Assembly: GCF_018873765.1 (NCBI RefSeq)
Contig: NC_057919.1
Coordinates: forward strand, 21,554,698 to 21,618,697
Source of the DNA: Telopea speciosissima
Lineage: Eukaryota; Streptophyta; Magnoliopsida; Proteales; Proteaceae
Reading direction: 5' to 3'
Length of the DNA: 64,000 nt
Shown: in pieces, positions 6,696-58,989 of the stretch
Numbering within the stretch: position 1 is the first letter of the stretch
How the letters are laid out: each line of letters begins with the position of its first letter
The notes under the pieces: generated by a model
What the model was told of the DNA's origin: nothing
What the model saw: only the letters and a program-made list of their open reading frames with translations
The model's database searches: none
Program-made: the position numbers and the translations under genes

Positions 6696-6730
6696 AAAAG
6701 ACCTATGAAAAGAAAAGTTGCAAATTTTCT

Positions 6731-6900
6731 CCTCTCAGGTTCCCTGCCCAGTCAGGTTCGTAGGTTCCTCTCATAGGGAGGGCAGAAATGACGACCTCAC
6801 CCCACCCGGGCAGTGTGTTCGGGCCTGGGGTGAGGTCGTCATTTCTGATCCCCTATGAGAGGAACCTACGAACCTGACCGGGCAGGGAACTTGAGAAGAG
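6731..6900. mobile_element. hairpin MITE, family A copy 1
   Basis: This is a nearly complete inverted repeat: CTCAGGTTCCCTGCC and CAGGTTCGTAGGTTCCTCTC on the left are matched in reverse complement on the right. The short loop contains GGGCAGTGTGTTCGGGC. A second copy with the same arms lies at 41167-41334. Confidence 0.85.
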
Positions 6901-9900
6901 CTAGATTCGGAAAGTTGCAACTGATCAATGCAGCCAATGGCAATCGTTAACATGGCATGCCCAGTTGGCATGGAAGAATGAGTCTCTCTCTCTCTCTCTG
7001 GTGTTAGAAATTAGGGAACGAAATGCAGCTAAAGAAAGGTTGGGAGTGGCAGAGAGTAGGTTTGGTGTTTTGGATTGAATGGTCTAAAGCTGTCTGTCTC
7101 TATTGTTATTCAGGCACTCTTCTAAGGCATGCTATACAGAGATTTGGAGAATGATTGGTTGGCCAGTAAGCCAGTGTCTTATACGTTCCTTTATTGCATA
7201 TATGACTATATGAGTGTGGCTCTTGGAAGCCACTGCCATTGGGCATTAGTGGGTGCGCTCTATTCAAAATTAAAAAAAAGAGTTATAATGCATGAGCGCA
7301 CTGAGTTAGTTCGAGTTTAAAGACTAGTTGAGTTGATCAATTGTTGTTTACATATGTACCTCTTAAATTAAATATATAAAATTTGTTTCTCTCTGTCTCT
7401 CTCTCTCCCTCTCTCCAAAACAATGGGTGGTGCTTCTAGCTCAATGTTTTGACTTCAATCGCCATCAATCAGGACTGGTTCAAAGCTTAAATCATGGAAC
7501 ATATGAGGAAGACTATCTTTCCTATAATTGCATGACATTAAGGTATTTTGGAGCTTCGCTGCTAGGAGTTGATATTTTATTTAATGGGTTTTTAATAAAA
7601 GAGTTTCCAAAATATCGTATCTCCCTATTGAAATTGTGCTTTTCGTTCTGTATGGTTTTGTCCGTACTGTTGTTTTCTTGTGTTTTGTTTTTTTAGGTAA
7701 TGCATTTTTGTATGAGATGTATAGTCCCACATTGAAAGTCGATGAGTTAAAAAAGAGACATATACATAGTTATTGGAATTATAAAGACAGTGTTTTGAAA
7801 GAAAGTGTTTATCTTCGCAGGAGGAAGGACACTAGCTTCACTTCAAAACACATACTCTTTTAATTCTTAGAGGCCTTAAATGATTAATGTGTGAGACAAT
7901 CCCATTCGTATAAATATGTCTATGTGCATAACTGCATTCCTATCCATTGGAACCAATGGACACACTCATTCCATGGGATACCTCAAAGGGGTGTATACTC
8001 TTCTATAAATAGAGGGAGTGCGTGCCTTCAAATGCTAATGCACAAATTCGTGTTCTCTCTCTTTCTCTTATTACATACTTTAATGCTGCCCGTTTTCTTG
8101 TAAAACCATTATATGGTGTCTTGACGATTGTATTGCATCCAAATTTGGCTTGAGCACAACTCTGACATACTCAAAAGGGCGCATCAAATGAGTGCACTTG
8201 CTGCTGAAAGCCAAAGAATGTACCATATTGGAGACAGTTTTACATTCAAATTCGGTTGCACAAAAAATGACAAATACTGACTTTAGGAGAGTGGCAAGTG
8301 GCACGTCTTAGCCTTCCATCTTCATCTTAAACAAGGACTCAAGTTTGTCACACTCTTCTACAGGATTCTTACAACAGATAAGTGATTCTCATATAAAATC
8401 TATACCTATTTCACAACAATTAATGATGAGACTCACTATTCCAGAATCCAATTATAGAGTCAATTCACTACCATGAATGAAAAGATTTCTCTCTTCACCC
8501 TGGATGATGGATGACTAAAAACTTTCCAAGTTGAATATTGAACAAAATTTGTAAAACTCTTTATCTTCACATGGGAAATAAGATTTTGGCAGAGGATTGC
8601 TTTAAGTAAGCGAGCGGTCTTGCCCCAATGAGAGGGGTGGGATAGGAGGGGCAAGTGATCCTTTCCCATGGGGGGGGGGGGGGGGGAGGGAGATAGATAG
8701 ATGTACGTAGGGTGGGCACCCCCACGGCGTGTCCAACCTTTTCCCTAAGATTTATTGCTGAAGAGATATATGATTATGTGGATGAATTATACAATTAGTA
8801 TTGCAGTCCCAAGACACACCATTTAGAACATATATGGAGAAAGACTAAACTTGTAACCAGTTTAAGCTCCATCTTAAGTGTGGACCTTGCTTATGGAAGA
8901 GGAGCAGAAGAGTGAAAGACTAAACTTGTAACCACAAGAGCTAAGAAACCCATTGGGCCGGACCACCCATTTGAAAACTTATAACTAACAGATTTGGTTC
9001 CTCAAACCGGCTCAAACTGCCAATGGAACCAAAAGTTCCACATTGGGTTCCGCAAGTCAGCTATGACTACAATGTTGAAATTAAATTAGTGCTTTAATTT
9101 AGTGGATAAATTGTGCCAGGGTTCTTTACACGGCCCATATAGGAAGCCTTTTTTTGTGGTCCATAATAGGGGTGTGAAGGTGTCAATCGGTTGGTTCAGT
9201 CCGATTTTGATCGGGTTGAATCAGTTTCGGGATGAAAATGGATGAAACCAATAAGAGAAGGTTTAGTTTCAGTTTGGGTTTGATTTATTTTGGGTTTTCT
9301 TTTGTCGAGTTGCTATCAATTTAATATCAGGTTTGGTCCGGTTTAAATTCAGTTTAACATATATATACATAATGATGGAGAAAAAAAAACACATTCGTTT
9401 TTATGGTTTTCGGATTGATATCGGTTTGGTTTTGGTATCGGTTCGATTTTCCATATTTGATGTGGTTTTCGTTCGTTCCGGTGCTGTCCAGTTTGCAGCT
9501 GATTGTATAATATCTCAAACTGAAGCCGGTCCATTAAGAAATCAGTTCGGTTAGGTTTGATTTTTCCGTCGATTTGACCAAAAAAAAACAAATTCCCCTC
9601 CTCACCTTCCAAAACTTTCCTGTTTCAATGGAGGCTGATTCTGATATCGACATTTATACAACAAAACACGGATCAAACAAAGAGGTAAGATAAAAAAAGA
9701 CTTTTTGGTTGCGAGCGCATGGAGTTTAGTTGTGGGTTAACATTAGAATATTACTTGGTTCGAGCTAGCTACTGGTTTTACTTTACTACCTATATCCGAT
9801 AATTATTACTAATTTTGTTTTTTTTTTGTTTTTTTTTTTTTGGTGTCTTTCATGCTGAGACTTTAGCTGCAAATCTAGAAATTCTGCTGTTGTTAATTCT

Positions 9901-20103: not shown

Positions 20104-20695
20104 CGATGTTAACCGAATCTGAAAAATTCTTACTTTTGTGGATTTCAGGTCATTAAGGGACTATCCGCATAAAGAGGGGGTGTCGAGATAACACTAGAAT
20201 AGGGTGACAACTCAGAAAATAGGCTTAGAGGTAGGAAATTCGGATTCGGGTAAGCCCAAAATCTGTTTTATAATGCAAGTGCCCGTGGGGGGGGGGTCCT
20301 ATTTATAGACAAGATACGTGGAACCTCCATGTAATCTGTGGATCACTTTGAGTGGTCCATGGATCCCTTTGGGTCCTCGAATGAGTCTTGGTCCCGTTTT
20401 GGACGTCGATTCGTGTCCAGAGGCAGGATTTGTTTTGCATAATATACCGCTGGAATTATTTTTCTGAGCATTATCCAATGGTGCAGGTGTTGGTCCAAGT
20501 TTTGATAAAAAATATTTTTAATTTCAGAACAAAAACTAACCCTAATTTGGTGTTGGGGGGAGGGGAATTCCATGTAGTCTATCTAATCACTACTTTTGCA
20601 CCCTTGGCTAGCATCAAATATTTTGCACTTAAGACACTTGTGCAAACCTTATCAGGGTCATGGTAGGGTAGGTTAGATGGTTGAGTTATTCTTGA

Positions 20696-21145
20696 GAGAG
20701 ATACTTTGTCAATCTACTTCTGGTTGTCATCATTTTGGGAGTGACAAAACTTGAGGTCTACACTTGCCTTATGAGTCCATTTCTATTGGATGCCTGTGCA
20801 TGTGCTTCTATTGACTGATGACTACTGTGTTGGCGCAAGGGCCTAACGACATGGCAGCCTTCCTTTTTCCTTTTTTTTTTTTTCCTTCTTTTTGGGAGGG
20901 GCTTTTTTTTTGGGAGGTGAGAGAGATACTTTGTCAATCTACTTCTGGTTGTCATCATTTTTGGGGGTGACAAAACTCGAGGTCTACACTTGCCTTATGA
21001 GTCCATTTCTATTAGATGCCTGTGCATGTGTTCCCATTGACTGATGACTACTGTGTTGGCGCAAGGGCCTAATGACATGGCAACCTTCCTTTTTCCTTGT
21101 TTTTTTTTTTCCTTCTTTTTGGGAGGTGGGAGGGGGAGGGGGGGG
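20696..21145. repeat. tandem duplication, 225-bp unit
   Basis: The unit starting GAGAGATACTTTGTCAATC at 20696 recurs at 20921 with a few substitutions. Each unit ends in a T-rich and GGGAGG tract. No coding content is recognised. The near identity suggests a fairly recent duplication. Confidence 0.85.
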
Positions 21146-30748: not shown

Positions 30749-31115
30749 CAAAAAAAAATGTCACCTGGACATGCATATGCGATTCGCTGTCCCACATGGG
30801 CAGGCAAAATGACCACCAGTCTGTGTAAAAAGGCAGAATTTTTTGGGATAGGATAGTCAATTCACCCGCCCCTCTGTCATGGGGGTGCCATAACATCGCT
30901 GTCGAAATTATTGTCTTTAATTTCTGCAAGCGGTTATCGGGCCCTTTCAACTGAAAATGAAGTCTCACTATTCGGACTTCAGTTTTTTCTTTATTTTTGG
31001 GTAAAAGACTTCGTACAACAGAACACACAATAAGAGGCCCACTCACTCCCTTCACCTCTCTCTCTCTCGCTCTCTGAAAAACAAAGAAGCTCTGGTTCCG
31101 ATTACAGAGAAGGAG

Positions 31116-31752
31116 ATGAGCAAGACAGATGGAACGTCATCGAAAAATACCCTCGAGTGTTGCATGTGTGGAGACTTTGGGCTACCTAACGAGCTCTTCC
31201 GATGCAAGATTTGCCTCTTCAGGTTCCAACACAGGTAAGTAATTAACTGATTGAGACCACACAGAACCACAAGTTGTAGATATAATTGATGATGTATGTG
31301 ATTGCAGATACTGTAGCGATCTCTACCCGAAAGCCGACTCTTATCGAGTCTGTAATTGGTGTCTGAAAAGAAAGGGAAGGAAGATCATCGACGACGGAGC
31401 AAACAATTCCTCTTCTCTTACTTTTCCTAATAATAACAGCAATAACAGACTTGAAGCCAAAAAAGAAGAAGAAATCAAGAACAAGAGAAATGATGGGCTT
31501 GTAGGTGTGAAGGCTCAGAGAGGGAGTCTACAATTGCATCTACAGAATCCTATGAAGAAGCAGAGATCGCCGGAGGAGCAATCATCGACGGCGGCACACC
31601 CGAAGAGGATGATTGCAAATGGGTGCTCGAAGGAAAAACTTAGAAGGATTAAATCGGAGGAGATCCCTAAGACTGGTGGGAGTGGGATCATCAAACAGGT
31701 CTTCAGAGGTAAGGTTCGACGGTATAAGCTCTTGGATGAAGTCTCTAGCTAG
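31116..31752 (+). CDS. PHD-like zinc-finger protein, copy 1
   Basis: There are two exons, 31116-31234 and 31308-31752, joined across a GTAAGT...TTGCAG intron, giving 187 residues. The N-terminal half has a C4HC3-like pattern: C15/C16, C18, C30, C33, H39, C42, C55 and C58 (CCMCGDFGLPNELFRCKIC, then QHRYCS and YRVCNWC). This resembles a PHD-type zinc finger. The C-terminal half is basic and Ser/Asn-rich and ends KVRRYKLLDEVSS. I recognise it as a small plant-specific PHD-like family of unknown function, and nuclear localisation is only likely. Splicing puts the intron within the zinc finger, between H39 and Y41. A near-identical gene lies 7.5 kb downstream (38630-39278), and both are intact. 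Confidence 0.85.
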
Positions 31753-32920
31753 TTTTTTTGATGAAGTACTTGATTAGCATAAAAGCCAACCCTTAGCAGA
31801 GATTAAGAATTTGTTCTTAAATGTAATGAAATTGGAAGAAGAAGAAGATAGAGAGAAAGATAGGATATCTTTGGTTTGAGAGAATTTGGTTAATTCGAAC
31901 GATGATTACCCTGAATTTGTGGTTCCAGATTTACAGACTGTCGATCCTTTTGAGTTTTGAGAATTCAACTTCTTCAAAATGATGGTTTTAGGTTCAAACA
32001 TAGATTATTTTTCTACTTTCCCTCTTTTCCACATTTAGTACAATAAGAAGAAGAAGAAAAGATTTTAAGGCTAATGGAGCAAAAAGACTGCCACTAATAG
32101 GTTTTAGTTTTTTTCTTTCTGATGGAAGCGTGTGTTATGATTAGGGTTACTGTTAATGACGTATTAACGTACTTGAGTTTAATTATGTGGAAATTGAGGC
32201 TCTCAGAGAATACACCGTTGTTTAAGGCATAATTAAATGTAAAAAACAGAGACTTGATCACAAGGGTCTTTGTCGAATTTTTATGTGCTGCTCTAATTGG
32301 AGCGCTGCTGTGTGCATCGTGTGATGCAGCAGCGGCCATGTGTGCATAGTGGACCCATATTTCCCTGTCAAGCAAGAAGAAGTTTAGAAGAAAGCTAATG
32401 GCGGGGGGGGGTGTGGAAAGAAAAGGCACATTGGATTGATAACAGTTCTTAGAACCTGCTCATTTTTTTTTTGGAGAGCACAGAAAGAATAAAGATAAGG
32501 CAAATAGGGCATGAGATAGCTGTCTGGCCGCGTGACTTTTACATCAGTGTGGGCCCAACGAAATTGCGTCAACATGGATGGATTTTTTTATTTCATAAGG
32601 ATGGGTGGGGGTGGTATGGTAATTTAGCACGTTCTTGTTTCTGGGTGTAGTGGCAACCAGACAACATTCTTTTTTTCGAAAAATTATTGTTTGGTTACTC
32701 AAAAAGATATGTTTGAATTTATCAAATTATTCACCTAGTCTTTCGTTTAATCAAATCATCTAGAAGAAAGATATGTATTATTGAATTCTTTAAACAAAGT
32801 CTGGTATAGACCACCTCACCACATACTAATTTGACATTTAATTTTGACTCTGATTATCACAACAAAATGTCAAAAGGTTCTATTAATCTTATGCACCACA
32901 CCTGTTCTATAACTCGGAAA

Positions 32921-33080: not shown

Positions 33081-33955
33081 TCTATAACTCCCTTATTCCA
33101 TTGGACTTGTTATGATTGTCTGCCACACCTGTGCTCACACAATTACTAATGCCTTTGCATATTTTTATTGCGATGATCGGAATCGGGGTGATTGTAGAAC
33201 AAGCATTCCTTATAGTGTTTTAATAATACATATCTTTTGTTTTAGATAATTTAATTAAAAAAGATTGGATGAGTAATTTGATAAATAGATCTAAACACAA
33301 TTTGTGAATAATTTGGTAATTTTTCCAAGAATAATTACGTACTTTTATCAACAAATAATTAATACCCGTAATGACCAAGGTATCCTCTCTAATACTTTCT
33401 TTCAATGGCACTCCCCTCCCCTGCATATTGACTAATGACACTTGTCTCCCCTATGATTTAAAGATTCTATCAACCATATCCAATCTATGAGAAGAACACT
33501 ATTAAGTGATGACCTCAGCCTTAAAATATTCATTTAAACCCCAAACTATCCTTATGTAGTGTGATATTCCTGATTGCCCTCCCTAATAATAAGAGAACTA
33601 AGTGAGATAAGGAAGATGTACTCTTCTTCTTCATTCGAACATTCTGGTGTGTAATTTTTTTCGTTCGAACACTCTCTGGTGGTTATCTTTTTCGTTGAAG
33701 CTCTCCGATCACCGAAGCTTTAACCGGAACTTGTAAATAGTCGTATACACCTTGTGAGCTTAACCGAAACCTGCGAAGAATGGAATGGTGTCATCAATCT
33801 CTTCCTAAGTTCTTCTTGGGTTGAAACTCATCAACCATCGGTAGTGTCACCGATCTTTTCACTGTCTAGTATCTGCGAAATCAAGTGGCTATGACGCGAA
33901 ACTGAGGGTAAGGTTTTCCCCTTGATTCTATTCTAAATGAGTCTATTTGTGATAT

Positions 33956-34289: not shown

Positions 34290-34975
34290 ATGTTAGAGAC
34301 ATGGATCAAGGTCACTCCCAAACCCATGGAAGATGGCTATTCCAGGCAAAAATACGGCCAGAAAGAGATCCTCAATGCCAAATACTCGAGATTTATATTT
34401 AATTTTCTCATTCATGTATTAGAGAGAGAGAGAGAATTTGCCACTTTGCCTTGGAATTTTTTCGGTTGATGTGCTTGACTTGATTTCCAAGAAAAATCTA
34501 ATAATTAAAAGACAAAAGCTAGTCAAAATCTTGTGATCTACAGGTTGCCTAGCAACCAAACAAATTCAAAAGACCGAAGATGTGAATCCTGCAATGTATC
34601 CCACCACTTACATAGGCCACAACACATGCCAAGATATGCTCATGAAGCGCCCCCCCCAATTTGTCATGGGTGGCAATCCTGGAGAGGGTTTTGCACTGAG
34701 CTTTGAATCAAACACTTCAACCAAACCATAGCTGCAGCTTCCCTCATGCTACTCATCCATCTCCTCTATCAAACCATAACACAAGGAGGAAGAAGAAGCC
34801 CTTATTATTGATCCAAATACCCATCATAACAACCAATCATCCTTGGAATATTTCCCATGGTCAGATCGACCATCGATTAATGAGTCACCTAGACCAACAT
34901 CATCAGTATTATTGCCTTCAACTTCAGGGTCAGAGGATTACGGAGATGTTTCAGGCGGGTATTCATGGGATTTGG
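34290..34975 (+). pseudogene. WRKY group III gene fragment (captured, decayed)
   Basis: The first block (about 34290-34390) encodes KVTPKPMEDGYS, then KYGQKEILNAKYSR. The diagnostic WRKYGQK is altered to SRQKYGQK, so W and R are lost. A second block (about 34535-34975) encodes CLATKQIQKTED, then TTYIGHNTC, the group III C-x7-C...H-x-C zinc finger end, followed by an acidic/Ser-rich tail with stops. The donor expected after YSR is not GT, and a base appears missing before CLATKQ. The intron-like gap between blocks suggests genomic DNA was captured and not cDNA. WRKY group III proteins are defence and senescence regulators, and this copy cannot make one. A hairpin MITE interrupts its downstream part. 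Confidence 0.75.
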
Positions 34976-34984
34976 GTCATCTGT

Positions 34985-35119
34985 AGCACGACACAGAGTG
35001 TAGCGCACCATCCAACCGCCCAGAGTGTTCGGGCATGCAGCTCAACACATAGGTGGGGTGTTGGGCTGCGTGCCCAAGAACTATGGGCCGTTGGATGTGC
35101 GCTACACTCTATGTCGCAC
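34985..35119. mobile_element. hairpin MITE inside the WRKY fragment
   Basis: AGCACGACACAGAGTGTAGCG and CACCATCCAAC at the left pair with GTTGGATGTG and CGCTACACTCTATGTCGCACT at the right. The loop includes CAGAGTGTTCGGGCATGCAG, echoing the loop wording of other hairpins in the window. Confidence 0.8.
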
Positions 35120-35294
35120 TACAAAGGAGCCCAACGTGGTATTCATGTACCATCACCAGCACGCAGCTCTCACAAATCGAAGAGTTGCCATGACAGTTTC
35201 AGCTCTTCTTTTCCACTGGAGAAGATATGACGTCCTGGGAGGTATCATCCCTTAAACTATTAAAGGTATCCAGAGATGAGGGTAATATTATCTT

Positions 35295-36689
35295 GGGATA
35301 AGTACGCGTACCCCCCTGTAATGCACCCAATATTCCTCGTACCCCTCTAAGCTTCTGATAAGTCCACGTAGCACCCCTGTTTTATCCCCCTAATGCCATT
35401 TAAGTCCACACCAGATATTAAATGCTATAAAATGACCAAACTACCATTTCTTTTATCTTTTCTAAAATTTGAAAAGACTTAGTTGCCCTGACCTATTTGC
35501 TAAAATTTGAAAAAATCAAAATGCCCTCATCTTCCCCAAATCATCATCTTCTTTTCCCCAAATCATCATCTTCTCAATCTCAATCTAGATGACGATAACA
35601 AGGTGGGTTTGGTCGCTGAGGGTGCCATTCAGCGTGTGGTTGGAGTTTTGCAGAGTGAGGGTGGGACACCTAACTGCAGGGCTCTTGCAGCCACCATGTT
35701 GACGAGTCTGGCCGTGGTGGAAGTTAACAAGGCCACCATTGGTTCCTACCCTTTTGCTATTAAAGCTCTGGTTTCGCTTCTTCGAGATGGCAGCAGCAGA
35801 GAAAAGAAACAAGCAGCCACCGCTCTTGATGCCCTTTGTTCATTCCCCGACAATAAGAAGAGAGTCGTCGAATGTGGGGCGGTGCAAATTTTGATCCAAA
35901 TGGCTGATTCTTGGGTCGACAGGGCTTTTGAAGTTCTGAGTCTCTTGGCTAAATGCAAGGAAGGCAGAGAAGAAATGGCGAGGTTTGATGGTTGTGTTCC
36001 AATTTTGGTTGGAGTGTTAAGGAACGGAACTTCACGGTCCGTACAGCACGCCCTATCCGCTTTGATTTCGATCTGTTCTTACAGTGAACAAGTGGGTTCG
36101 GAGGCTAGGAGGGAAGGGGTTGTAGATATTTGTTTGGGATTGTTGGATGATGAGAGTGAAAAGATTACGAGAAATGCTTCGAGTTTAATTCAAGGTCTGC
36201 GGAAGTACAAGCCCACGAGCTGATTCGCCCTTAAATTTTTACATTTATAGGGAAACTTTGTGAGCAACGAAGCGAAAGAGCTCGGCTTTGGGGAGGAGCA
36301 AGGACGCTTTTTCCTTCTTCTTCGTACTTCACTTGTGGAGGTGGGCTTCACGGTGGGATGGTGATGGTGTTAATGGTGGGCGGTGGTGGTGGCGGTGATG
36401 GTGGTGTAAAAGAAGATGATGATTTTGAGAAGATGAGGGCATTTTGATCTTTTCAAATTTTAGTAAATAGGTCTGGGTAATTAGGACTTTTCAAATTTTA
36501 GAAAAGATAGAAGAAATGGTAGTTTGACCATTTTATAGCATTTAATACTTGATGTGGACTTAAATGGCATTAGGGGGATAAAGTAGGGGTGGTACATGGA
36601 ATATTGAGGGGTGATACGTAAACTTATCAAAAGCTTAGGGGGGTACGAGGAATATTGGGTGCATGACAGGGGGTATGCATACTTATCCC
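35295..36689. mobile_element. Pack-MULE-like element with captured U-box/ARM gene fragment
   Basis: The element is 1395 bp with inverted arms of about 260 bp: GGGATAAGTACGCGTACCCC at the left, and the arm's reverse complement runs to CTTATCCC at the right. Exact 9-bp flanks TATTATCTT lie at 35286-35294 and 36690-36698. Other paired pieces are AATATTCCTCGTACCCC, ATTTAAGTCCACA, CAAACTACCATTTCTT and AAAATGCCCTCATCTTC. Long TIRs, a 9-bp duplication, no transposase and host coding sequence inside match the Pack-MULE definition. It sits inside the outer TIR element (33387-36830). Confidence 0.88.
35507..36223 (+). CDS. chimeric ORF: captured PUB8-like ARM-repeat fragment
   Basis: This is an open 238-codon frame. 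The first ~25 codons come from the TIR arm. From about residue 27 (LDDDNKVGLVAEGAIQRVV) it is armadillo-repeat sequence close to the C-terminal half of U-box protein 8 (PUB8-type E3 ligases): AATMLTSLAVVEVNKATIG, then VSLLRDGSSREKKQAATAL, AKCKEGREEMARF, and a terminal repeat ending LIQGLRKYKPTS. The U-box, which gives E3 activity, is absent, so it could at most bind partners. The fragment has no introns and no stops over about 640 bp, which suggests either recent capture or selection. Whether it is transcribed is unknown, and the start at 35507 is only the first ATG of the frame. Confidence 0.8.
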   Translation: MKKSKCPHLPQIIIFFSPNHHLLNLNLDDDNKVGLVAEGAIQRVVGVLQSEGGTPNCRALAATMLTSLAVVEVNKATIGSYPFAIKALVSLLRDGSSREKKQAATALDALCSFPDNKKRVVECGAVQILIQMADSWVDRAFEVLSLLAKCKEGREEMARFDGCVPILVGVLRNGTSRSVQHALSALISICSYSEQVGSEARREGVVDICLGLLDDESEKITRNASSLIQGLRKYKPTS

Positions 36690-37499
36690 TATTATCTTTT
36701 TCATTACATTTTTAACACCGTCAACAAATATACGTACGGTTGATACAATCTTTAAATCTAAGAGTAGACAGTTGTCATTAGTCAATATGCAGTGGATGGG
36801 ATTGCCATTGAAACAAAGTATAGGGAAGTGTACTTTTCTCAAAAATTTACTTTATATAGCATGTAAAATTCCATTAAAGAGAAAATTTTGTATTTTAATT
36901 TGATGGACGTTGGTGATGGATACCTCTCTTCGAATGGCTACAATGAATATGGAAGAAGTTGGATCAGGTGTGCAATTGGGTCAGATTTTTTAGAACTCCA
37001 ACCAAAATCAAGGTCCCCTTACCTCAACCCCAGCCCAGGCACAGCCGTACCATGCTCAACCCAACCTAATCCGGCTCTGATTGATTCTAACTGGGCTAGG
37101 TTGGCCCTGATTGACCCCGATAGCCCCAATTTTTGCCATTTCAAGGCTAAGCAAGGCCAAGCTAGGCATGTTTTCTGACTATATGTATGATTTTACTATG
37201 TATAATTGTATATTTCAATAATATCAGGAAATTTTGGAAACCAAATGAACGTAGACCAGAGCAAGCTTTACACAAGCTACTAAATTGTCCTAGTATGGCT
37301 GAAAAATCTAGTATAAAATAATGTATAATTTTCAAAGGGAGGGATCGCTGCTAAGCTGTGAGCACACTGGACATCCAACAAGGGTGAAATTTTCCATTTT
37401 ATAATGGAGGGGGGGGGGTCATTTCGCCCTTCCGATGTCTTATTTTCAACTCCTTATACTTGAGTATCACAATTAATTGACCAATGTAGAAGGACTTGG

Positions 37500-38260: not shown

Positions 38261-38629
38261 TGCAGCGCACGCTGCCCCTGTGCTCTGACACAGTGGTGCA
38301 CAAATGACTGTCACATCCTTGATCATTTATTATATACAGGGGTACAGGGGTACTACCCCTTCGATCATTCCATGCATCCCTGTGTCAAGGCAATGGGCGG
38401 CTTGCAGGCGTGACCGGGTGGCTTTTTTTTCTCCCTATGTATATATATTCTCTCTCCACTCTTGTCATAATTTCTTCAAGCAGTTAGAGGGCCCTTTCAA
38501 CTGAAAAGCCCACTCACTCCCATCCTCTGAAATGGTTAGGTTGTTCACTTTGTAGTGAACCTTCTTCCCCACCCCACCCAACTCTCTCTGGAAAAGAAAG
38601 AAGCTCTGGTACCGATTACGGAGCAGGAG

Positions 38630-39278
38630 ATGAGCAATCAGGGAACCGATGCAACATCATCGAACAATACCCTCGAGTGTTGCATGTGTGGAGACTATGG
38701 CTTACACAACGAGTTCTTCCGATGCAAGATTTGCCTCTTCAGGTTCCAACACAGGTAACTAATTAACTGATCGAGACCACACAGAACCACAAGTTGTAGA
38801 TATAATTGATGATGATGATGATGATTCATGCGATTGCAGATACTGTAGCGATCTCTACCCGAAAGCCGATTCTTATCGAGTCTGTAATTGGTGTCTGAAA
38901 AGAAAGGGAAGGAAGATCATCGACGACGGAGCAAACAATTCCTCTTCTCTTACTTCTCCTAATAATAACAGCAATAACAGACTTGAAGATAAAAAGGAAG
39001 AAGAAATCAAGAACAGGAGAAATGATGGGCTTGTGGGTGTGAAGGCCCAGAGAGGAAGTCTACAATTGCATCTACAGAATCCCATGAAGAAACAGAGATC
39101 GCCGGAGCAATCATCGATGGCAGCGCCAAAGAGGATCATTGCAAATGGGTGCTTGAAGGAAAAACTTGGAAGGAATAAATCGGAGGAAATCCCTAAGACT
39201 GGTGGGAGTGGGATCGTCAAACAGGTCTTCAGAGGTAAGGTTCGAAGGTATAAGCTCTTGGATGAAGTCTCTAGCTAG
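38630..39278 (+). CDS. PHD-like zinc-finger protein, copy 2
   Basis: There are two exons, 38630-38754 and 38840-39278, giving 187 residues. It keeps all putative zinc ligands of copy 1 (CCMCGDYGLHNEFFRCKIC, then QHRYCS and YRVCNWC) and the same C-terminus, VFRGKVRRYKLLDEVSS. Relative to copy 1 it gains residues near the N-terminus and loses two near the middle (PEQSSMAAPK), so the length stays the same. Indels are multiples of three and the splice sites are conserved, so both genes look functional. The intron is longer through a GAT microsatellite. Function is unknown, and a PHD-like finger suggests chromatin or protein binding. Confidence 0.85.
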
Positions 39279-40090
39279 TTTTTTTTTAATGAAGTACTTG
39301 ATTAGCATAAAAGCCATTATCAGAGAATTCAAAATTTGTTCTTAATTGTAATGAAATTGGAAGAAGAAGAAGAAGATAGAGAGAAAGATAGGATATCTTT
39401 GGTTTGAGAGGATTTGCTTAATTAGAACGATGATTATCCTGAATTTGTGGTTCCAGATTTACAGATTATCTATCCTTTTAAGTTTTGAGAATTCAACTTC
39501 TTCAAAATCGTAAGGTGTCCAACGTTGTTTTTTTTCTTTTTTCTTTACTGATGATGGTTTCAGGTTCAAACATAGATGATTTTTTTACTTTCCATGTTTT
39601 CCACATTTAATACTAAGCCTAGAAGAAGGAAGTAAAAATAATTAAGGCTAATGACGCAAAAAGACTGCTATTAATGGGTATTATTAATTTTTTAAAATTT
39701 TTTTATTTCTAATGGAAGCGTGTGTTATGATTACGGTTACTGTTAATGACGTATTAGCGTACTTGGGTTTAATTATGTGGAAATTGAGGTCTTAAATGTA
39801 GAAAACAGAGAGGTATCTCACGTGGGGTCTTTGTCTACCATATTTCCCCCTTTCAAGCAAGAAGAAAGCAATGCTGGGGGTAGAAAATGCACATTGGATT
39901 GAAACAGCTTAGAACCTGTTCTTTATTTTCTGGGAGAGTCTTGCACCAGTTTATGCTGTACGCATCTACGATTGCTGCATGGCTGCGTGACCTCTACATC
40001 AGTGCATGCCAAATGCGTCTGTCACAGCCTCATTGGGATTAACATGGATGAAATTTTTTTATTTCATAGGGGTTGGTGGTAGTCTGGTAG

Positions 40091-40847: not shown

Positions 40848-41166
40848 CTTCAATAACACACATCTTTATTTTAGATAATTTGATTAAAATGATTAGATGA
40901 GTAAATTGTTAAATAAATCCCAAACACAATTTTGAATAATTTGATAATATTTCCAAGAAATAAATAGGTACTTTATCAACAAATGATTAACACCAACCCA
41001 ATGTAATGATCAAGATATCCTCATTCCACTAACGTGAATGGTGGACCAGGAGCAGGACCTAGACCGAATTTGCTCCTCTCTTTCAGTCTACGTGCACTGC
41101 ACGGAAGAAAAGCTGGAAGTGATTCACCAATCACCACCACTTAACATTATTAACTAACGAATTTTT

Positions 41167-41334
41167 CTCCACTCAGGTTCTGCCTAGTCAGGTTCGTAGG
41201 TTCCTCTCATAGGGAGGGCAGAAATGACGACCTCACCCCACCCGGGTAGTGTGTTCGGGCGGGGGTGAGGTCGTCATTTCCGATCCCCTATGAGAGGAAC
41301 CTACGAACTTGACCGAACAGGAACCTGAGAGGAG
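41167..41334. mobile_element. hairpin MITE, family A copy 2
   Basis: The arms (CAGGTTCGTAGGTTCCTCTC and its reverse complement) and the loop are nearly identical to 6731-6900, about 34 kb away, showing a mobile family. Confidence 0.88.
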
Positions 41335-41725
41335 TTAAGTCCATTAACTAACAGGTTGATTTGATGTCCACTTATGAATGCTGAGTCAATTAGATTATAT
41401 AAGATGCAGATTTAGCATTCATGAGAAAATTTTGTATTTTAATTTTGATGGGCGGTGATGATGGATACCTTTATGGATAGGGGAGAAGTTGAATTACGGT
41501 TGTAACCAGCTAGGGCTGCTTCGGATTTTTTAAAACCCCAGCCCAACCTTAGGTCTCCTTAATTCAATCCAAGTTCAGGCCCAACCTTATTGGGTTCAAC
41601 CCAACCGAGCCCATCCCTGATTGATCCTGATTGGGTCGGATTGGCCTGATTGACCTTAACAGCCACTATTTTTGTTCTTCCAGGGATACGCAAGGCTGGG
41701 GTAATAATGTTTTTTACCGTATGTA

Positions 41726-51977: not shown

Positions 51978-54900
51978 TGTTAGATAGATTGTAATAAGAT
52001 GAGAGATTAAATAAATATTTTGTTATTTGGGTAAAGTGCTTTAGTCCCACATCGGAAAACTACAAGAGTTATAAATGGTATTTATTATATTACCTTCTTT
52101 ACCTCTTGAGTTAAACCGGAAAAGGGAGACATTCTACGGTGTATATGCGAGGACGGCATAGCCGTCCGTACAAGCGCCCGCGCGGAGTGGGTAGTGGACT
52201 GTAGAGGCATTAGTGGCGTACGCAAGTACTTAGCACGCTTGCATCGCGTTGCAAACGATCTGATCTGGTACGTTGATTTTTTGAAATGATCAGATCCGTC
52301 GGATTAGAAGATCCTACGGTCACGTTTGATAGGATATGACTGTTGTGAACAGGTTCATCTCTGGTTTAATCTGGACCGTTAGATCGGATGACAATTGATC
52401 TAATGGTCTAAATACAAAATGAATAGATATGTCTATTCAGAAGAGGTGCTCGACTTCTACAAAATAGAAGTGCTGTGTTCAAACGAAATATCTCTCTCTC
52501 TTGCATTCCGTATTTCTAAAAGATGTTCTGTGTTTTATTTTTATTGCTTTGTTGAGTCCTGAAGGTGAATTTGTTGTGTGAGGCAAATATCTCCTTTAAG
52601 AAAGCGAGATCGCGTTCAAAGCAGTTTGAAGTTTCCTTCTCCAAACAGTTTTTCTAACAATTTAAAGGAGATATTTTGTTATCATGGAAGGAGGCAACGC
52701 TGCTTTGAAGATGATGATGTCCCCAAACTTCGTCAAACTCGAAAGTTTTGACAGTACCAACTACACCGTTGGCAAGATAAGATGGTGTTCCTGTTGAATC
52801 GTCTGAAGATCTTTTATTTGTTAAGTTCTGCGTTGCAAGTTTTGCTAGAACCGTCTGATAAGGACACTGATGCTGTGAAGAAAGAAAGAAGTAAGTGTGA
52901 AGAAGATGAGTTAATCTGCAGAGGATATATTCTAAATAGTCTCTCAGATCGTCTCTATGATTACTACAAGCCAATCAAGTCACCATATGAAATTTGGAAA
53001 CAGATTGAAGATAAATACAGAACTGAGAAAATAGGTATGAGCAAATTTCTCACCATGAAATATTTTGAATTCAATATGAGTGATGGTGTCAGTATTATGG
53101 ATCAATTTCATGATCTTCAAGTTTTAGTGGGAAAACTTCGGGGTCTTGAAACCATAGTTTTCGATTTACTCCAAGTGGGGGCGATTATATCAAAACTTTC
53201 CCCCAGTTGGAATGATTATAAAAAGAAACTTCTTCATATGACAGAAGATTTGTTTGTTGGACAACTCGAAAAGCATCTACGAATTGAGGAAGAGAATAGA
53301 ATTCGTGATGACTTGGTCATTGGTTCTAAAGTGAACACTGTTGAACAAAATGGAGTTAAGAAGTTTCATAAGAAACTAAAGATCAATAAGAAAGAAGTTT
53401 TCAAGAATAGCAGCAAAGACAAGAAAGACAGAGTATGTTTTCATTGTGGAAAAAAGGATCACTACATTCGTGATTGCAAGTATCGGAAGAATAGTAGTAT
53501 TCTAGACAAAGCAAATGTTGTTGAATCTGCACCACAAGATCTAGTCGCAATGATGGAAATTGGTATGATTACTGAATTGCAACGGTTCATGTGTGCAATG
53601 ACAAGATACAGTTCAAGACCTGTGAGGATATTGCAAGACGAAAAGTTCTAATGGAGAATCACAATTCTGTGTGAGGATATTGCAGGACGAAAAGTTCTAA
53701 TGGAGAATCACAATTCTGCTAAGGTCCTAGCAAAAGGAAGTATTGAACTGCAATTTACTTCTAGGAAGAAATTGAAGTTAATGAATGTGTTGTATGTTCC
53801 AGAAATTCGTAAGAATTTGGTTTCTGCTAATGTGCTATTTAAGAATGGTTTTAAAACCGTTCTTGAGTCTAATAATATGATATTGTCCAAAGGGGTGTCT
53901 TTGTGGGAAAAGGTTATTCTGTTGATGGGATGTTTAAGCTCAATATTAATAAGATGGCTTCTAGTTCTGCTTACTTGATTGATTGTTCTTCTGATTTATG
54001 ACATGCTCGTTTAGGACACTTGAATCTTAGATACATGAAAAATATGTCAAAACAAGGCTTAATTTCTTATAAGTATGAAAATAAAAATAAAGAGATATGG
54101 AATTTATAGAGAATAAATTCATAAAACCTGAAGATATGTTGAAAATTTAAAAGCATATAGACTTTTGGATCTGGATTCTAACATAATTGTTGAATCAAGA
54201 GATATGGAATTTATAGAGAATAAATTCATCAATGAATCAAAATCTGAAGAGGTACATATTCAGACACCATCTTCTATTTTGGAGTCTAGTGGTCACACTA
54301 ACATGGAAACTCAACCATCTCTTAGTTTGAAAAGATATTCGAGTGTGATTAGTGAACCCAATAGAAGTCAAAGAGTTAGAAAAGAAAAGGACTTAAGTCC
54401 AGATTTTATTTCCTCACAAGCTCTTGTTTTTCTTGTGGAAGGGAATAGGGAAGTTGTTCTAAATGAAATACCAATAGTATTCAGTTTAGAAGATGATCCT
54501 AAAACATATAGTGAGGCTATGTGTTCAAGGGATTCAGCTTTCTGGAGAGAGCCTATAAATGATGAGATGGATTCCATAATGTCTAATGGCACATGGGTGT
54601 TAGTTGATTTACTTCAAGGATCTAAATCCATAGGTTGCAAATGGGTATTTCGAAAGAAATTAAATACAGATGAATCTGTCAAAAAATTTAAGGCAAGGCT
54701 AATGGCTAAAGGTTTTAAACAAAAGGAAGGCATTGACTATTTTGATATATATGCACCTGTTGTTAGAATAACGTCCATTAGAGTATTATTTTTCTTAGTT
54801 TCATTATATGACTTATGGATGTTAAAACAATATTTTTAAATAGTGATTTAGATGAAGAAGTCTATATGGAACAACCCGAGGGTTTTGTTCTACCTGGAAA

Positions 54901-57265
54901 TAGTAAGAAAGTCTGTAAATTTGTTAAGTCACTATATGGCTTAAAACAAGCGCCAAAACAATGGTATGAAAATTTTGATCAAGTAATTTTGTCAAATGGT
55001 TTTATGCATAACAGTGCAGACAAATGCATATATTCTAAGTTTACAGACACATATGGTGTAATTATATGCCTCTGTGTCGATGATATGCTTATTTTTTGAA
55101 CTAATTTAGTTGGTGTACTTGAAACTAAAGAGTATTTTACTTCAAAATTTGAAATGAAAGATTTAAATGAAGTGGATACTATTTTAGGAATTAAAGTAAA
55201 GAAACATAGTGAAGGATTTTCTTTATGTCAGTCACATTATATTCAGAAAATGATAGAGAAATTTAAGTTTCTTGACATAAAAGAAGCAAATTCTCCTTAT
55301 GATTCTAGTTCTAAAACAAGCGAGCATTCAGGTAGGGCTGTGGCACAACTTGAGTATGCTAGTGCAATTGGAAGCCTAATGTACGCAATGCATTGTACAA
55401 GACTTGATATAGCTTTTGATGTTTGCAAACTTTCGAGATACAGTAGTAATCCTAGTGTGGATCACTGAAAAGCCATTGGTCGAGTTTTTGGATATCTTAA
55501 GAAGACTATGAATTTTGGTTTGTTTTATAGAAACTTTCCAGCAGTGTTAGAGGGATACTCGGATGCTAGTTGGATTACTAGTAGAGGTAATAATAAGTCC
55601 ACATCTGGATGGATTTTTACACTAGCTGGTGGAGCCTTATCTTGGGCTGTAAAGAAGTAAACTTGTATCTCACATTCAACCATGGAGTCTGAATTTATAG
55701 CTTTGGGAACAATAGTAAAAGAAGCAGAATGGCTTAGAAATATATTATTGGATATAAAGTTGCAGTCACAATCGATGCCAACTATTTTTTTGTACTGTGA
55801 TAGTAAAGCCACTATGTCTAATGCTTATAGTAAGATCTACAATGGAAAGTCTAGACATATAAGCTTAAGACATAAATATCTTAGACAATTGATTCAAGAT
55901 GGTATAGTTATCATTCTACATGTGAAGTCTAACAATAATTTAGCGGATCTTTTTACGAAAAATCTACTTAGGGAGCTTGTAAAAGGTACATCCAAAGGAA
56001 TGAGGCCGAAACCCTTATAGTCATCAGTAGTGGGAACCCAAGCCGACCTTATGAATAAGGTTTAATAGGTAATAACAAACTATTGCTAAATGATTGTAAA
56101 AAAACCATTGAAATTAATAACCCAAAAGGTGTCAATATTAACTGTTATGAGTTGAGGATAACTTCTATGAAGTTTTAATAAGATTTATATGAAGTAAGAG
56201 TATCTACAATAACAGAGATACTAAAGAAAAACCTACCTATATGAATATTGAAATGGTGCCGTTTCTAAGCAAGAATTTAGGGTTTATTCTTGTAAGTGTT
56301 CATGAATTCAGGATAGAGCACAGGACCGTAAGAGTGCTACTATGTTAAAGATTTTGACATAGAATCAATTATAGTTGTGTGTGTAGTATTTTTTATTTTA
56401 ATATTTGTAAGAATTGGTTTAATGCTAAATCGATCAACCACATTCTATATTACAACTTTGAAATACTTACACTAATTAAAAGTTTAATGTCAAGTCAACC
56501 TTTTCGTATGCATAACTATGTAGTTAGAGATATTAAGATGTTTATTACAATCTAGTGGGGGATTGTTAGATAGATTGTAATAAGATGAGAGATTAAATAA
56601 ATATTTTGTTATTTGGGTAAAGTGCTTTAGTTCCACATCGAAAAACTACAAGAGTTATAAATGGTATTTATTATATTACCTTCTTTACTTCTTGAGTTAA
56701 ACCGGAAAAGGGAGACATTCTACGGTGTATATGCGAGGACGGCGTAGCCGTTCGCACATGCACACTCACACACACAAGCGCACGCGTGGCGTGGGCAGTG
56801 GGTTGTAGAGACGTTAGTGGCGTATGCATGCACTTAGCACACTTGCATCGCGATGCAAGTGATCTGATCTGGTACGTTGATTTTTTGAAATGATCAGATC
56901 CGTCGGATTAGAAGATGCTACGGTCACGTTTGATAGCATATGACTATTGTGAATAGGTTCATCTCTGGTTTAATCTGGACCGTTAGATTGGATGGCAATC
57001 GATCTAATGGTCTAAATACAAGATGAATAGATATGTCTATTCAGAAGAGGTGCTCCACTTCTATAAAATAGAAGTGTTGTGTGCAAACAAAATATCTCTC
57101 TCTCTTGCATTCAATATCTCTAAAAGAAGTTCTGTGTTTTATTTTTATTGCTTTGTTGAGTCTTGAAAGTGAATTTGTCGTGTGGAGCAAATATCTCCTT
57201 TAAGATAGTGAGATCGCGTTCAAAGCAGTTTGAAGTTTCCTTCTCCAAACAGAGTTTCTCTAACA
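51978..57265 (+). mobile_element. Copia (Ty1-type) LTR retroelement fossil
   Basis: The 5' LTR is 51978-52659 and the 3' LTR 56564-57265. Both run TGTTAGA...CTAACA and are flanked by a 5-bp target duplication, ATATG (51973-51977 and 57266-57270). A polypurine tract precedes the 3' LTR. Recognisable parts are gag with a CCHC knuckle (CFHCGKKDHYIRDC), a pre-integrase edge, reverse transcriptase and RNase H, in the Copia order. It is broken in several places and not capable of moving by itself. The LTRs differ by substitutions and a short indel at a level that looks like a few percent (not counted), so the insertion is probably some millions of years old and younger than the surrounding Gypsy fossil. 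Confidence 0.93.
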
Positions 57266-58989
57266 ATATGCTATTAGGATGACCTTGGCTTCATCAGGTT
57301 GGAGCGGCGGCATCAAGTTTGCATCAGAAGTTGAAGTTCATTTTTGAAAGGAAAGTTGTAACCATTGTAGGAGATTCACATGTGATCAACACCTTGGCAA
57401 ATATTGTGGGGACAAATACCCAAGGGAAGCAGTAAGAGGTACGGCTGAGCGATTTTGAGATTAAAAATGTCTGCACCTTTCTCAGTCAGTTGTTATGTTA
57501 TGAAGGAGTATGGAATGGTGTTGTGTCTCAAACAATAAGAAAGATGGGGTTACTTTCCAAGTTTGGGTATAGGCAAAAACCAACGAGGTATTCCCAAATT
57601 CCCAGACTTCTTGGACAATAAAGGTACCTATGGGTTGGGGATTTTACCAGTAGACTAAAAAATGAAGAAATATAGCATTAAAGAACAGGTGGACATAAGG
57701 GGAGCTCAGAGAAAGAAAGGGTGGAAGGAATAGGTCGGGGAGAGACCAATAGACGAAGAGTTCAGGAAAAACAAAAGATGAAGAGATTAGCACAGAAGGT
57801 GATGAAATCAGGGGCAAGAATTTCACAGAACATGGAGGTAGCACCAACGATAGAAGAAGGCCTCACCGTGCTACAGAACATTTAGCGGATATTTCACTAG
57901 AGAAGGAGAGATTTTTCTATACTATGGGAATATTGAGCCATGGTTCTATGATATTGTGGGAAGATTGTTATCAGGGTTTGAAATCTTCTTCCAGGATGAT
58001 CGATGGAGAAGGAGCTCCTATGTTGACAGAATCAGAAGCCTATTTGACAGCGAAGTAGCAGTATTTTCGACATCGATGGAGAAGGAGCTCCTATGCTGCA
58101 TCTATTAATCCACCTAACTCTCGGACCTATCCCCAATTGGGCTTGCATTGGCCACATTTTCATGCACGATGAGTTTCAGGGTGTAGGCAATTCCAACTAC
58201 TTTTTCTTTGTCTTCTTTAAGCATTAATGAAAATTTCAATTCCAAGTATGTGTTTTCTTTTCCTTCGATGATTTCAATGATATACCTAATGAATATTACA
58301 AAATAATTAAACGATCAAAAGAAAGAAGATCCTAACCCATCCGTGAGGATTCAAGAGCCGTAAATCTAGGGATGGATTAATGCTCTCGAGAGGTGAAAAT
58401 TGGCACAATCCTCACCAAAGAAGAAACCCGTTAGTTGGTTGATCTTAAAAAGACTTTGGAATATAAATTTGTTAAAGATTTTGAAGCATATTTGATGGAT
58501 TGGGTCGAAGAAGGAGAGCCTTTGGGTTCAGTGGGTGAACCATAGATACCTTAATTAACAAACTCGTCTTTGGCTTGAACCGTTTAAGTTCATTGATCGA
58601 CTTTAGATATGTGGCTGATTCGGTAATTTCTCAAGGTGTGGGCTTCTCTTCCAGATTACAAGCCCTTGCAGTTTAGTCTATGTTTGTTAGCAAGGGGAAT
58701 TAAAAGGAAGGAAAGTGAAAAAATTTATACCTTAGAAAGAAACTTTTGTAATCATTACCCCATGTGATAGGATAAATTACTTCAATTTCATATCATATTT
58801 AGTAATGATACATTTTACATGTAATTTTTATTTTACTTTTTAAATCATAGAGAATTAAATGCAAAGTAAAGTGAAATTTAATAACCAAATATGGAATGAT
58901 TTGCAGTAAGTGATATAGTCACATGCGGTAATGATTACAATAGTTTCCTATTTAAGTTTAAAATTTTCACAGCCCTTCCTTTTAATTCT

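Follow-up and report, generated by a model that had tools for sequence, protein, structure and literature searches.

We found that positions 35295-36689 of the Telopea speciosissima stretch analyzed here (64,000 nucleotides, the window) form a 1,395-bp Pack-MULE-like element. With a probability of about 0.88, this is a non-autonomous Mutator-like element (Pack-MULE) that holds the C-terminal part of a U-box/armadillo (ARM) gene and was inserted by a MULE transposase acting from elsewhere. That such an element captured the ARM region from a plant U-box gene is supported by a target-site duplication (TSD), terminal inverted repeats (TIRs), a search of the element that found no transposase, and a match to the Pfam family ARM_PUB. 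The parts are as follows.

35286-35294, no strand: left TSD, TATTATCTT, read directly and the same as 36690-36698
35295-35555, + strand: left TIR, 261 bp, starting GGGATAAGTA, aligned to the right arm
35588-36223, + strand: captured piece coding for the C-terminal ARM repeats of a plant U-box protein (Pfam ARM_PUB, 4e-18), stop codon included
36224-36407, no strand: internal stretch from the ARM stop to the right TIR, GC 0.505, with a GGTGGT-rich tract
36408-36689, − strand: right TIR, 282 bp, including two 11-bp blocks that the left arm lacks
36690-36698, no strand: right TSD, TATTATCTT

At the base composition of the window, nine bases at a fixed place would all match by chance with a probability of about 6e-6. 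Alignment of one TIR arm to the other (E = 7e-85) showed identity at 237 of 260 aligned bases, which is 91% without gaps and 84% once the 23 gap columns (three gaps) are counted. The local alignment score was 350, whereas 500 single-base shuffles of one arm reached 34 at most. The differences comprise 18 transitions and 5 transversions (K2P distance 0.096), and the two larger gaps, 11 bp each, may represent one event. Because the TIRs differ at 9% of their aligned bases, the insertion is not fresh. Short repeats lie in the left and right arms (37- and 31-nt units, 38-bp spacing), and copies of a 21-nt unit straddle the inner boundary of the left arm.

The element contains 13 stop-to-stop frames of at least 40 aa, all of which were scanned with Pfam. 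A transposase was found in none of the 13, and the 12 frames besides the armadillo frame gave no match at E up to 0.1. We assigned the element to the MULE superfamily from the length of the TSD and the form of the TIRs, not from likeness to a named autonomous element. PMC4858842 describes a Pack-MULE by two repeats of the same family in opposite orientation and less than 20 kb apart, an adjacent TSD of 7-11 bp, and no transposase; it also asks for a TIR family with several members. Here, an exact 9-bp TSD adjoins the TIRs, the arms are long, related, oppositely oriented and less than 20 kb apart, and no frame of at least 40 aa has a Pfam transposase match. By the criteria in that paper on the TSD, the arrangement of the repeats and the transposase, the element qualifies. 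It is the only such element in the window, where blastn and tblastn found neither a parent gene nor a second copy. Of 11 pattern matches in viral contigs and 62 in prokaryote contigs, none could be confirmed as a relative, as expected because those collections are without plant genomes.

Inside the TIRs lies a fragment of a host gene for a non-transposon protein, recognized by its ARM_PUB match. The armadillo frame is open from 35504 to a stop codon ending at 36223. Its 214 codons at 35579-36220 matched ARM_PUB, the ARM region of plant U-box proteins, at E 4e-18 (66.3 bits, cut-off 33) and Pfam Arm at 1.3e-13; the whole 239-codon frame matched at 1.6e-18. The ARM_PUB match runs over 35588-36190 of the window and positions 79-285 of the 308 in the profile, so the captured piece covers approximately the C-terminal two thirds of the ARM region and lacks its first part. 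Its left edge, 35588, is approximate and marks where the match begins. Since the profile is nearly exhausted at the right, the stop codon is probably the parent's own. The captured piece has a GC content of 0.485 compared with 0.387 for the window, consistent with the report that rice Pack-MULEs capture GC-rich sequence (PMC4858842). The adjoining stretch at 36224-36407 is perhaps the parent's 3′ UTR, a second captured piece, or both; its open frames of at least 40 aa gave no Pfam match.

AlphaFold2, run on the captured piece without an alignment, predicted 13 helices with a mean pLDDT of 74 (61 to 74 over five models). Designed armadillo proteins lead the best 50 of 297 solved-structure matches at E ≤ 0.001, with yeast Vac8 and APC also among those 50, and a PDB sequence search was concordant. 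The predicted model and these matches show an armadillo fold; it is the ARM_PUB match by itself that places the piece in the PUB family. No U-box was present among the Pfam matches of the captured piece or of the 12 other element frames, and by the criterion of a U-box the piece falls outside the functional U-box E3 ligases. It has in common with plant U-box/ARM E3 ligases (an earlier note on this DNA called it "PUB8-like") the C-terminal ARM region defined by ARM_PUB, but lacks both a U-box match and the start of the ARM region. On the structure of the element our results agree with that note, which had described exact 9-bp target duplications (TATTATCTT at 35286-35294 and 36690-36698), TIRs of about 260 bp (261 and 282 bp, 91% identity without gaps), some 640 bp of uninterrupted ARM sequence (214 codons at 4e-18, ending in a stop) and a fragment without a U-box (no Pfam match in the element's frames).

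The start of the open frame proved to be a different matter. The same note had placed its ATG in the TIR, so that the transposon would supply the start. In our analysis, the armadillo frame has its first ATG at 35696, an internal Met of the captured piece located 141 bp beyond the inner end of the left TIR. Three short features define this region.

35521-35592, + strand: 23-codon open frame from a left TIR ATG, out of the armadillo frame
35589-35702, + strand: 37-codon upstream open reading frame (ORF) in the third frame, starting 34 bp inward of the TIR and overlapping ATG 35696
35696-36223, + strand: longest ATG-initiated ORF, 175 aa, entirely inside the captured piece

The left TIR carries armadillo-frame stops at 35348, 35369, 35480, 35489 and 35501, the last of which, a TAA, is the final one ahead of the captured piece, and there is no in-frame CTG between 35504 and 35696. 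Six ATGs of the element lie upstream of 35696: those at 35321, 35393, 35422, 35432 and 35521 in the left TIR and that at 35589. Of the TIR ATGs in the armadillo frame, 35321 is stopped at 35348, and 35393 and 35432 are both stopped at 35480; 35422 and 35521 are in another frame and reach a stop after 2 and 23 codons, respectively. With all five TIR ATGs out of frame or stopped earlier, the idea that the transposon supplies the start is refuted for any transcript that is not spliced. In view of these stops and frame differences, the most plausible reading is that the open frame comes from the C-terminal part of the parent gene and has an internal Met as its first ATG.

Splicing would be needed to join a TIR start to the ARM piece. 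No GT precedes the stop for ATG 35422 or ATG 35521, so a canonical intron cannot rescue the latter. A GT at 35339 is available to ATG 35321 and one at 35404 to ATG 35393 only, and a GT at 35482 overlaps the stop common to ATGs 35393 and 35432; the donor contexts of these three TIR GTs look poor. The ORF starting at 35589 contains 11 GTs. A spliced fusion of a TIR ATG to the ARM piece is possible in principle, though unlikely.

We propose that the C-terminal part of a U-box/ARM gene was copied into the interior of a Pack-MULE, probably after part of the TIR divergence had accumulated, and that a MULE transposase acting from elsewhere inserted the element, leaving the 9-bp duplication. A TSD together with the absence of a transposase points to transposition in trans. 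The U-box half is simply absent, as it would be in a truncated pseudogene, and the same interior could in principle be a resident, decaying copy of a U-box gene that was later flanked by unrelated inverted repeats, with no capture at all. However, the two TIRs end exactly where the 9-bp duplication begins on either side, which is most simply explained by insertion of the TIRs and the interior as one unit, and we consider a resident gene copy extremely improbable.

The Pack-MULE lies between the two copies of a direct-orientation duplication (31070-32199 and 38584-39789; 85.6% identity over 1,216 columns), and the duplicated gene has a weak plant PHD-finger match, below the Pfam cut-off. When the flanks of the element were compared with the rest of the window, no match spanned the insertion point. 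Similarity between copy 1 and copy 2 ends at 33387/41022 (81%) and restarts at 36852/41395 (68%), so the block with the Pack-MULE has no detected counterpart in copy 2. This gap is a hint of an empty site and nothing firmer; the second match may be a dispersed repeat, with copy 2 holding other sequence between. The Pack-MULE is also enclosed by 87-bp inverted repeats (33392-33478 and 36735-36821, 86% identity). They might mark the termini of an older, larger element, but support for this is lacking, as even the best pair of flanking words in the scanned stretch differed at 2 of 8 or 9 positions. A near-palindromic sequence of 163 bp (34972-35134), 78% identical to its own reverse complement and MITE- or foldback-like, lies 160 bp before the Pack-MULE, and a palindromic MITE-like sequence occurs in two copies with 91% identity (6722-6909 and 41158-41337). 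Elsewhere in the window, 51978-57267 is a Copia-type retrotransposon with LTR-like direct repeats (51978-52661 and 56564-57267, 90.6%), between which gag and reverse-transcriptase matches fall in separate open frames, and 20693-21126 contains two near-adjacent direct copies of about 209 bp that are 95% identical.

We considered whether the captured ARM piece could be a retained, translated small protein, either 175 aa from ATG 35696 or a spliced product, that competes with a full-length U-box E3. Its frame is intact, an ARM superhelix fold is predicted for it, and ATG 35696 lies in GCCACCATG, a context that looks favorable. As a stand-in for dN/dS, we simulated how often 214 codons stay open under neutral change; the outcome depends on the assumed residence time of the piece in the element, on 80% of indels being frameshifting, and on the TIR indel rate (3 gaps per 23 substitutions, or 2 if the two 11-bp gaps were one event) also applying to the piece. 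At half the TIR distance (0.048 per site), the frame stayed open in 1.9% (3 per 23) to 5.9% (2 per 23) of 10,000 runs, which favors retention. However, survival rose to 14-23% at a quarter of the TIR distance, corresponding to half the residence time, and to 43-54% at 0.01 per site (TIR indel rate, n = 10,000 for both). With indels ignored, the frame stayed open in 48%, 69% and 85% of cases at half the distance, a quarter of the distance and 0.01 per site, respectively; when the indel ratio was instead assumed to be 0.05, 0.1 or 0.2 at half the distance, 14%, 4% and 0.3% of 4,000 runs stayed open. The intact frame is thus suggestive only, as weak evidence for late capture or constraint; luck fits as well, and the data do not separate these. 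The observed/expected CpG ratio of the captured piece (0.70) exceeds those of the TIRs (0.52 and 0.29) and of the window (0.49), but three other genes in the window span 0.26 to 0.91, so we build nothing on the value of the piece. The start of the ARM region is missing, and six ATGs precede 35696, of which 35521 and 35589 are out of frame and close before it, the ORF of the latter overlapping it. Translation of the ARM piece would therefore be poor if it were transcribed from the left TIR. Taken together, a retained competitor protein is very doubtful, and a selected natural decoy for a U-box E3, that is, a Pack-MULE-borne ARM protein without a U-box that starts at the internal Met behind the TIR upstream ORFs or at a spliced TIR start, is highly improbable.

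Transcription from the TIRs could matter in another way. A pattern count identified a TATAAAA motif in each arm.

35426-35432, + strand: TATAAAA motif in the left TIR, possible promoter
From 36537, − strand: TATAAAA motif in the right TIR, possible promoter

Both motifs point inward. A transcript that started about 30 bp past the left motif would reach ATGs 35521 and 35589 ahead of 35696, which makes efficient translation of the ARM piece doubtful. TATAAAA occurs 32 times in the whole window, 18 times on the + strand and 14 times on the − strand with both TIR copies counted, and for this reason the TIR motifs are weak promoter evidence. Promoters within MULE TIRs reportedly drive Pack-MULE interiors (PMC3310237), and TIR promoters could transcribe the captured piece here in one or both directions. 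The inward-pointing pair (35426 on the + strand and 36537 on the − strand) would allow convergent transcription and, from it, small RNAs against the parent gene. Such an outcome has precedents: a 2026 review (PMC13317346) describes siRNAs from gene-carrying elements, including Pack-MULEs, that act on donor genes in maize, and 24-nt RNAs map to MULE interiors and TIRs in rice (PMC4858842). On the other side stand the 32 occurrences of the motif, the TIR pair included, and the fact that a hairpin of the arms alone would target the TIRs rather than the parent. We regard small RNAs against the parent gene as possible and, on balance, unlikely. The element is most likely a passive copy of a gene fragment today; any effect that it might have would more probably come about through small RNAs from convergent transcription.

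The element looks like an ordinary plant Pack-MULE of a known kind. It shares with the Pack-MULEs of rice, maize, tomato and Arabidopsis a 9-bp TSD, long TIRs, a GC-rich fragment of a host gene, and no transposase found. Its TIR identity of 91% is lower than in young Pack-MULEs, whose TIRs are often identical or very similar (PMC3310237), and its open frame belongs to the captured gene instead of starting in a TIR, unless by splicing. Tandem-TIR Pack-MULEs of tomato are gene-fragment MULEs of like size, with a minor maximum at 1300-1400 bp reported in PMC3310237; unlike them, the element has no second full TIR, only short repeats. A search of titles and abstract starts, with subscription papers mostly outside its reach, found no report of a Pack-MULE capturing a U-box, armadillo or ubiquitin ligase gene. 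Two sources give over 3,000 Pack-MULEs in rice (PMC13317346) and counts of 2,924 in rice and 276 in maize (PMC3903597). With some 3,000 such elements in rice alone, a single one changes little by itself. This element is a clean, structurally complete example of a Pack-MULE. It can help annotators of this genome to avoid listing the ARM piece as an ordinary gene, and it is useful for asking whether gene fragments carried by MULEs affect U-box ligases.
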